From contig CANLEH010000001.1 in the NCBI GenBank assembly GCA_947489665.1, positions 1,522,501-1,586,500 on the forward strand: DNA of 64,000 nucleotides, read 5' to 3'. Source of the DNA: an uncultured Roseicyclus sp. (GTDB lineage: Bacteria; Pseudomonadota; Alphaproteobacteria; Rhodobacterales; Rhodobacteraceae). Position numbers and translations under genes: made by a program. The notes beneath the pieces were generated by a model that was not told the DNA's origin, made no database searches, and saw only the letters and a list, made by a program, of their open reading frames with translations. Positions within the stretch are counted from its first letter, which is position 1. Every line of letters begins with the position of its first letter. This document shows, piece after piece, positions 20,499 to 21,633 of this stretch.

Positions 20499-20951
20499 AT
20501 GACGAAGATTGACGAAAAAGATCAGCAGATATTGCAAGAGCTATCGCGGGATGGCCGGATCTCGAATCTCGATCTGGCGGAACGTGTGGCGCTGTCGCCC
20601 TCGGCCACGCTGCGCCGGGTGCAGGCGCTTGAGGCAGCCGGCGTGATCAGCGGATATCGTGCGGTGTTGGATCAGGCAAAGCTGGGGATCGGCTTTATCG
20701 CCTATATTACGGTTGGTTTGGGGACGCATACCAAGGCGAGCCAGGCCGCGTTCGAGGCGGCGATTGCGCGGGCGGACGAGGTGCGGGAGTGCCATAACAT
20801 CACCGGGACCGTGGAATATCTGCTGCGGGTCGAGGTGGCGGACCTGCCGACCTACAAGCAATTCCACACCGATGTTCTGGGCGCGCTGCCGCAGGTGGCG
20901 ACGATCACGACTTTTGTGGTGATGGGATCGCCGAAGGACACTCGGGCCTGA
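20499..20951 (+). CDS. Lrp/AsnC-family transcriptional regulator
   Basis: 150 residues. The N-terminal winged helix-turn-helix (DEKDQQILQELSRDGRISNLDLAERVALSPSATLRRVQALEAAGVISGYRAVLD) is followed by a RAM/SAM effector-binding domain (residues about 68-145) with the family's CHNITGTVEYLLRVEVADL strand. Members form dimers to octamers and change DNA binding on sensing an amino acid. Divergent from the LysE exporter, so it is probably its activator or repressor. The short leader contains inverted TTGCGAA repeats, which suggests autoregulation. Confidence 0.93.
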   Translation: MTKIDEKDQQILQELSRDGRISNLDLAERVALSPSATLRRVQALEAAGVISGYRAVLDQAKLGIGFIAYITVGLGTHTKASQAAFEAAIARADEVRECHNITGTVEYLLRVEVADLPTYKQFHTDVLGALPQVATITTFVVMGSPKDTRA

Positions 20952-20965
20952 AGATCAGAGCATAA

Positions 20966-21005
20966 AAAAACGGCGATGATCCAAGGGAGGAGAGGATCAT
21001 CGCCG
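20966..21005 (-). terminator. Terminator of the DUF1127/CcsR-like transcript (hairpin 1)
   Basis: A perfect 10-bp stem CGGCGATGAT/ATCATCGCCG (20971-21005) whose loop on the minus strand is CCTCTCCTCCCTTGG, followed on that strand by seven T. It is both the intrinsic terminator and the last anti-SD hairpin of the array. Confidence 0.85.
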
Positions 21006-21220
21006 CATATCTTGGCCCCTTCCAAGGGAGGAGAGGAAGGCGCCTATGGCATCGCCCCTCAAGGGAGGACGAGGAACTTTGCCGGTCGTCACGGCCCCGA
21101 TTTGGGAGGAGAGGGACCGATCTTCAAGACCCGTTGCCGAGCCTTTTGTTGGTGCGGACAGACCCAAGGGAGGAGAGGGTTGCCCGCCGTCCCATGCGCC
21201 AAGGGAGGAGCGGCGCATGG
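20971..21220 (-). ncRNA. CcsR/cuckoo-type sRNA array, six anti-Shine-Dalgarno hairpins
   Basis: Six copies of a loop motif, CTCCTCCC within CCTCTCCTCCCTTGG on the minus strand, lie downstream of the DUF1127 gene. Stems: 20971-21005 (10 bp, perfect), 21014-21044 (8 positions, one mismatch), about 21048-21083 (weak; core CCTC/GAGG), about 21083-21119 (CGGTC/GACCG), 21154-21187 (two short helices), 21192-21220 (CCATGCG/CGCATGG, perfect). They group as three pairs. In Rhodobacter sphaeroides, CcsR RNAs are two-hairpin sRNAs with CCUCCUCCC loops, encoded behind a DUF1127 gene and induced by stress; order and strand match here. The loops could base-pair with ribosome-binding sites or bind a protein. 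Confidence 0.85.
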
Positions 21221-21236
21221 TATTCCGTGAGGTGCC

Positions 21237-21458
21237 TCAGGCGGTCTTGCCGTAGGCGGCTTCCAGCGCGATGCGGCGGATCATCGATGGGTTGATGCCC
21301 AGATCTGCCATTTCGCGAGCCGAAAGCTCATTCAATTCGTTCAGCGTGTTGCGGTAGACGCGCCAGTTGCGGTACGCCGCCACTGCGTCGGTGCGCAGGG
21401 CTGCAAAGCGGGCGGCAAGCGATTCAGATGCTGCGCGGTTGCTCGTTACATATGCCAT
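21237..21458 (-). CDS. DUF1127 small protein upstream of CcsR-like RNAs (CcaF1-like)
   Basis: 73 residues. The C-terminal half is the DUF1127 signature: YRNWRVYRNTLNELNELSAREMADLGINPSMI, a basic-helical domain of small RNA-interacting proteins. The gene immediately precedes the anti-SD hairpin array on the same strand. In R. sphaeroides the DUF1127 protein of the equivalent locus (CcaF1) influences sRNA maturation and RNA turnover; a similar role here is inferred from context. A candidate promoter lies about 90 bases upstream. Confidence 0.88.
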   Translation of the reverse strand: MAYVTSNRAASESLAARFAALRTDAVAAYRNWRVYRNTLNELNELSAREMADLGINPSMIRRIALEAAYGKTA

Positions 21459-21545: not shown

Positions 21546-21573
21546 AATTTAGGCCAATGCTGCAATTGCACAA
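21546..21573 (-). promoter_or_regulatory. Candidate promoter of the DUF1127/sRNA transcript
   Basis: On the minus strand TTGTGC (21573-21568), 16 bases, TAAATT (21551-21546). In R. sphaeroides the equivalent locus is driven by RpoH-type sigma factors; the match here is too loose to say which sigma factor is used. It implies a leader of about 80 bases. Confidence 0.4.
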
Positions 21574-21633
21574 TAACCGATGGCGAATTGCTGCTATGCA
21601 GCGAGCGCATGACACATTTCCGTTACATTACGT

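Follow-up and report, generated by a model that had tools for sequence, protein, structure and literature searches.

In the 64,000-nt stretch of Roseicyclus DNA analyzed here (hereafter, the window), a minus-strand gene at 21237..21458 encodes a CcaF1-like DUF1127 protein of 73 amino acids (Pfam PF06568, E 7.7e-14) and is the first gene of its operon. Directly downstream on the same strand, as in a CIN1 locus, this gene is adjoined by an array of hairpins with anti-SD (aSD) loops, the first of which starts 16 nt after the gene end, and on the opposite side of the array, a convergent AsnC/Lrp gene ends at 20951. Relatives of the DUF1127 protein, 58-96% identical to it, are present in 12/12 same-genus genomes. 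The same genome contains two further DUF1127 genes, at C7:38731 (L010) and C5:107113 (L012), with no aSD array found within about 1.5 kb of either; at L010, a single lone aSD core lies close to the gene end. Elsewhere in this genome (C1 near 30979, minus strand; L001, 1490-1545), a lone 12-bp hairpin, with two aSD motifs in a 29-nt loop, sits downstream of small curlin-repeat-like genes, which were named by eye.

The array, which like the gene is read from the minus strand, consists of six aSD hairpins. H1 (21192..21220) has 10 bp and the loop CUCCUCCCU; H2 (21154..21187) has 11 bp and the loop UCUCCUCCCUU. These two are followed by the sole long spacer, in which sits a further hairpin without an aSD motif (21126..21145). 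Beyond it lie H3 (21092..21119), with 7 bp and a 14-nt loop that includes CUCCUCCC; H4 (21048..21083), with 12 bp and the loop UCCUCCCU after CG, where GUCCUCCC replaces CUCCUCCC; H5 (21014..21044), with 9 bp and the loop UCUCCUCCCUU; and H6 with its U7 tail (20964..21006; z -7.3), a Rho-independent terminator that comprises a 13-bp hairpin proper with the loop UCUCCUCCCUU (20970-21006) and the U run (20964-20970). A generic terminator scan found none here, its loop limit being 8 nt versus the 11-nt loop of H6.

The initial annotation of this DNA had described a DUF1127 gene followed on its own strand by six aSD-loop hairpins, the last doubling as the terminator, and folding, shuffling and the comparison of loci all bear this out. 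The 286-nt region folds on the minus strand at -126.9 kcal/mol (z -5.0), with 0/200 shuffles as good, whereas the plus-strand fold has z -1.1, with 24/200 shuffles as good; the annotation had allowed for a fold on the opposite transcript only, and this is not what we see. A hairpin caller that requires an aSD core (TCCTCCC or CTCCTCC) in the loop, and misses eroded loops, finds six hairpins in the region versus a maximum of three in 2000 dinucleotide shuffles, and besides the caller, all six were read directly from the sequence and its fold.

The comparison covers 110 DUF1127 loci, the better matches only, namely, 30 of the 47 matches listed in a search of 61 genomes, 34 of which had a match, together with 80 of 106 named relatives, chosen as the best-matching ones. 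Among the 108 loci for which 300 nt or more of downstream sequence is available (L089 and L116 have less; the window is included as L013), which are related so that the counts are not independent, 106 have, in the 400 nt that follow the gene, at least three aSD hairpins in sense orientation. By the same measure, nothing was found in antisense (0/108) or in upstream stretches (0/107), and shuffles yielded 1/540. The two misses, L032 and L038, have no array, and together with L010 and L012, they make it clear that the array is not universal behind DUF1127 genes. Duplicates (L043, L044, L045, L046, L052 and L072), kept in the 108-locus count, were removed from the array-size counts and from the 104-locus counts given below. 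Array size was taken from 95 non-redundant arrays, each having three or more hairpins and no less than 700 nt of available sequence, a set that omits five with less than 700 nt along with L032, L038, L117 and L119, where fewer than three hairpins were called; L117 and L119 have six cores each on direct reading. The sizes range from 3 to 15, with six hairpins in 24 arrays, seven in 20 and eight in 19. Given this range, six is an ordinary size, and three pairs, which the initial annotation had named as one difference from the R. sphaeroides layout, do not set it apart. An even-number rule for array size was considered and rejected: 64/95 arrays are even, yet 20 have seven hairpins. There are eight hairpins in Cereibacter johrii and at both R. 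capsulatus loci, 3+3 in Mesorhizobium, and seven in 5/6 Yoonia-titled loci. In arrays of four or more, the last hairpin exceeds the mean of the others in strength in 87/97 cases and is followed by TTTT in 74/97. The largest arrays, L033 with 15 hairpins and L035 with 14, have cores 35-54 nt apart and lack any long spacer; in L033, the Rfam ar14 cut-off is reached by two stretches.

The aSD core UCCUCCC is unpaired in the loop in all six hairpins of the window (6/6). The initial annotation had credited the six loops with one aSD motif, which holds for this core and not for CUCCUCCC, which is found in 5/6, with GUCCUCCC in H4; in the window as a whole, CUCCUCCC has 8 matches versus 2.5 expected, 5 of these within the array. 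The constancy of the 7-mer UCCUCCC across loci is partly an artefact of the caller, which seeks that core. The exact 9-mer CCUCCUCCC that names the cuckoo family occurs in 0/6 loops of the window, and it is for this reason that we file the array as a variant. The full CCUCCUCCC is present in 13 of the 83 called loops in 13 genomes of the window's genus (L013-L025), in 53/61 loops of eight close arrays (L047-L051, L053-L055), and in 509/577 called loops of the remaining arrays. The loops have thus drifted from the full CCUCCUCCC, and the variant is common to the genus of the window. We considered, and rejected, the notion that this drift tracks shifted ribosome-binding sites: perfect complements of the 9-mer are rare at such sites in each of the six genomes tested (1-9 places; controls, 1-5) and, accordingly, the drift is not linkable to a change of targets.

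Covariation was analyzed in seven sequences, the window and six relatives, among them L017, for which the caller gives five hairpins. Of 429 cells, 90.0% preserve the structure of the window, and 19/62 pairs have changed on both sides; in each case, 0/500 shuffles are as high. The covariation score is 0.333 versus 0.187 in shuffles, none of which (0/500) reaches 0.333, and in a slid control, with the partners moved by 1-3 columns, 36-48% are paired. A count of further pair types gives 43 versus 38.7 in shuffles (38/500 as high), only weakly above chance. The stems, in short, vary while the pairing is kept: changes on both sides affect 6/10 pairs of H1 and 5 pairs of H5 (helices 5 + 6), and H6 (helix 7) is paired in 100% of cells.

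Stems 3 and 4 call for separate consideration. The initial annotation had regarded both as weak, which is correct for stem 3 and mistaken for stem 4. When excised, H3 prefers another fold (-12.5, z +0.35), and it is missing from the centroid of the whole-region fold; H4, in contrast, at -18.5 (z -2.8), is about as strong as H1 (-17.9), H2 (-18.0) and H5 (-17.9). Across the seven sequences, window included, the stem of H3 shows pairing in 100% of cells without any double-sided change, so that, as it never breaks, it is supported by conservation rather than covariation, and H4 is paired in 85% of cells, with 4 pairs changed on both sides. From the weakness of these stems, the annotation had suggested that units turn over; given that stem 3 is weak alone but conserved, they provide no evidence of this. 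Conceivably, the array could be decaying, with stems 3 and 4 as dying units: H3 alone folds no better than shuffles, H4 has lost CUCCUCCC, and in L017, L018, L019 and L025, the H2 loop has eroded to CCCUCCC, with the stem kept. We consider this very improbable in view of the pairing of H3 and H4 across relatives, the retention of the core in every loop of the window, and the more general trend for the third hairpin to be weaker than the fourth (67/97 arrays, called hairpins counted). A different property of H3 is that it competes with an alternative fold; at 21082-21126 of the window, CGGUC pairs with the downstream GACCG, altering the loop. Both arms of this refold are largely conserved across the seven aligned sequences and, therefore, a switch at H3 is possible.

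The core-to-core steps in the window are 35, 64, 41, 37 and 41 nt, with one long spacer, which suggests a 2+4 arrangement rather than the three pairs of the initial annotation. A clear three-pair array does exist in R. mahoneyensis (L048), where six hairpins are spaced at 37, 66, 41, 70 and 37 nt; by comparison, the second long spacer is absent from the window as well as from its close relatives. The spacer hairpin at 21126..21145 is a candidate processing region between the units H1-H2 and H3-H6, where cleavage might be placed.

Turnover of units is nevertheless real in the family at large: in 4/13 chosen arrays (L049, L066, L081 and L069 of C. johrii), some neighboring pair units are 96-100% identical, and the number of called hairpins varies from 4 to 8 in the genus of the window (the 4 of L025 being an undercount, with eroded loops uncalled) and from 4 to 12 among Roseicyclus-titled records. 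Because such near-identical neighbors occur in some arrays and the counts vary, the hairpin pair is the duplicated unit; in the window, where neighboring pair units are 54 and 59% identical, no recent event is visible. Tandem pair units 88-100% identical to their neighbors (L049, L066, L081) would also be expected of mobile or REP-like palindromes that came to lie beside the gene by chance, an explanation that we find barely credible. The loop form CTCTCCTCCCTTG, which the genome-wide search covered, occurs with at most 1 mismatch at 9 places in the own genome, 4 in the array and 5 single and at least 3.9 kb apart (two of these five were read), and array, gene and strand go together in 106/108 loci. 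Constant loops with changing stems are, moreover, unlike REP elements. What emerges for the evolution of such arrays is duplication of entire pairs, with stem sequences changing under the constraint of pairing and loop motifs drifting jointly.

The initial annotation had likened the layout to that of CcsR/cuckoo RNAs, and the resemblance to the published locus is indeed close. In R. sphaeroides, a ccaF1-CcsR1-4 operon has been reported, and a DUF1127 gene with such RNAs in alphaproteobacteria is termed the CIN1 locus in the same account (PMC10253847). Like ccaF1-CcsR1-4 (RSP_6037), the operon of the window combines, on one strand, a DUF1127 gene, aSD hairpins in the 3' UTR and a terminator in the last position, with a candidate RpoH-like promoter as a further likeness, and similar arrays stand behind nearly all of the surveyed DUF1127 relatives. 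It differs in having six hairpins versus eight (counted in Cereibacter johrii, which we take to be near R. sphaeroides), spaced 2+4 versus 2+2+2+2, and loops that are mostly UCUCCUCCC versus CCUCCUCCC in 8/8 loops of C. johrii. With the cuckoo RNA family, which according to citing papers was reportedly described by Reinkensmeier and Giegerich in 2015, and with its Rfam representative CcsR1 (RF02791), the window shares modular hairpins, a constant aSD loop and free stems, but it is without the exact 9-mer. In a covariance-model search, the check put forward in the initial annotation, CcsR1 matches the window at 28 bits (E 1.2e-4), below the gathering cut-off of 65.3. The best Rfam score of the window is that of ar14 (RF02344), 45.8 bits (E 4e-7), also below the cut-off (58.8), and every sRNA family stays below its gathering score in the window; a search of the own genome with RF02344 gave no match and was uninformative. 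These scores are to be read alongside those of C. johrii, where the first pair scores 106 bits as CcsR1, and the three other pairs, at 39-47 bits, also miss the CcsR1 cut-off of 65.3.

The hairpins of the alphaproteobacterial ar14/NfeR1 RNAs (RF02344) each have an aSD loop, as in the window; unlike the window, ar14 is described with three hairpins, and NfeR1 is reported as a trans-acting sRNA with its own sigma-70 promoter (PMC10746234, PMC7143759). In Mesorhizobium (L108), two triplets score as Rfam ar14, at 93 and 90 bits. With a C. johrii pair scoring as CcsR1 and these triplets as ar14, it follows that CcsR and ar14 occupy one kind of locus, in keeping with a 2011 proposal, made for Rhizobiales, of one family whose members differ in how many CCUCCUCCC hairpins they have (PMC3927594). 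The L108 locus itself (1799-2096) presents two tandem ar14 RNAs behind its DUF1127 gene and, upstream, a site that resembles the VtlR box with 3 mismatches. Comparison provides good support for the identity of the window array as a CcsR/cuckoo-type aSD RNA operon, of a known kind but in a copy that is a variant in loops and spacing. With it, the range of this stress-RNA operon now includes the Roseicyclus group.

Very probably, then, we are dealing with a CIN1-type operon, in which the 3' UTR of a DUF1127 mRNA contains six aSD hairpins, in the genus-wide loop variant, that by analogy would act in trans. A stress-type promoter would transcribe the CcaF1-like DUF1127 mRNA together with the long 3' UTR, and H6 would end the transcript. 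As in R. sphaeroides, where the four CcsR RNAs are reported to be cut by RNase E from the ccaF1 3' UTR (PMC10253847, PMC8625941), RNase E, helped by the DUF1127 protein, could release stable small RNAs from this 3' UTR, in the window most likely one unit of H1-H2 and another of H3-H6. The unpaired UCCUCCC loops might then base-pair with numerous mRNAs at their GGGAGGA ribosome-binding sites, reducing translation. In the own genome, GGGAGGA N3-10 ATG is found 81 times (one match falls within the array, and one site with two ATGs contributes two matches) versus 16 for the reversed pattern, and the control TCCTCCC N3-10 ATG shows no excess (24, two of them in the array, versus 23). The excess of GGGAGGA at start codons points to possible targets and is not proof of regulation. 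As for the protein, DUF1127 proteins may, according to one report, act via proteins such as PhoR instead of RNA (PMC12501420).

All six hairpins lie in the 3' UTR, the last one being the terminator, and maturation of the operon transcript that encodes CcaF1 is reportedly influenced by CcaF1 itself (PMC10253847). The hairpins could act mainly in cis, protecting and terminating the DUF1127 mRNA or serving as an autoregulatory platform for the DUF1127 protein, with no targets in trans. This seems improbable to us: for protection, a 3' UTR would not require a constant loop, yet the core stays while the stems covary; the core complements ribosome-binding sites in genomic excess, as opposed to the control; and processed trans-acting CcsR RNAs have been published for R. 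sphaeroides (PMC8625941, PMC8307010).

The promoter region provides a further lead. On the minus strand upstream of the gene, there is an imperfect palindrome, CGCTGCATAGCAGCA (site A, 21589..21603), which overlaps a VtlR-box-like 15-mer and contains an exact PhaR-type CTGCNNNGCAG at 21591-21601; then TTGTGCAATTGCAGCA (site B, 21558..21573), which overlaps the presumed -35; and then the presumed -10, CCTAAATT (21546..21553), in the place of which relatives have CCTATCTT or CCCATGTT. The functions of sites A and B are putative, and the presumed -10 would be sigma-32-like; a sigma-70 scan found no site on the minus strand. For R. sphaeroides, an RpoHI/RpoHII promoter has been published (PMC10253847). 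TTGTGC and the -10-like CCTATCTT/CCCATGTT recur in the upstream sequences of relatives, and the site-B pattern TTGTGCAN2-4GCAG is present in 85/104 loci. From the start of the site A box to ATTGTGCANNNGCAGCA of site B, the distance is 27 or 28 nt in 80 loci; the block formed by the two sites is conserved across Rhodobacteraceae. Two spaced sites, one of them over the -35, are the usual LysR plan.

The VtlR motif of Brucella is reported as CAATGCAGCCATGCA, and VtlR is said to control three DUF1127 genes and AbcR2 in that bacterium (PMC12595884). With at most 3 mismatches, this motif is found upstream in 94/104 loci versus 1/197 downstream stretches, and the best of 2000 shuffled boxes reaches 17 loci; site A of the window itself has 4 mismatches to it. 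VtlR adjoins trxB in Brucella, according to the same source (PMC12595884). Synteny of this kind was sought and rejected in the own genome, where the neighbor of trxB looks, by eye, like AsnC/Lrp and not LysR and, consequently, an LsrB-like gene was sought by sequence, the query being a Mesorhizobium LsrB-like protein encoded beside trxB, the location of VtlR in Brucella. Each of four Rhodobacteraceae genomes (4/4) has one outstanding match, 40-43% identical (E 7e-74 to 5e-78), with the next-best matches at 8e-35 to 2e-32, and at the N-terminus, 47/65 residues agree with the own-genome copy. On sequence grounds, these LsrB-like proteins could be orthologs, one of which may bind at these promoters. 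We propose, tentatively and with somewhat more doubt than conviction, that the DUF1127/aSD-RNA operons of Rhodobacterales are activated by an LsrB/VtlR-type LysR protein via two sites, one well upstream and one over the -35, as three DUF1127 genes and AbcR2 are in Brucella, a circuit that would reach beyond Rhizobiales, with the loops of the genus shifted in concert. According to one paper, only Rhizobiales have LsrB (PMC11975290), and in the literature listings, we found no report of a link between a LysR regulator and these operons. If the proposal is true, one old LysR circuit controls a multi-target aSD RNA array beyond Rhizobiales. The regulator hypothesis is the part that deserves a bench test, for which the conserved promoter element offers a direct and cheap means to identify the controller of the operons outside Rhizobiales.

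A live rival regulator for this promoter block is PhaR, which we judge to be less likely at site A without dismissing it. CTGC-N3/4-GCAG is present upstream in 64/104 loci, and site A of the window, taken by itself, is an exact match to the published R. sphaeroides PhaR site, CTGCNNNGCAG (PMC12542648), and fits it better than it does the LsrB/VtlR box. Against PhaR, 40/104 loci are without CTGC-N3/4-GCAG; in addition, among the 84 site-A rows with up to 3 mismatches that come from outside Mesorhizobium/Hyphomicrobiales, all 84 have A or G as third base of the spacer, whereas the reported S. meliloti PhaR consensus asks for Y at this position (PMC12542648). CTGCNNNGCAG alone is not above chance in the window (2 found versus 2.2 expected). 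PhaR may also act at site B: the phasin-phaC intergenic region of the own genome holds TTGTGCACACGCAGCA beside PhaR-like palindromes, and this, together with the PhaR evidence at site A, slightly lowered our confidence in the LysR reading. The region in question (L124, 1500-1570, on C5; gene names assigned by eye) contains two PhaR-like palindromes and a copy of site B, TTGTGCANNNGCAGCA.
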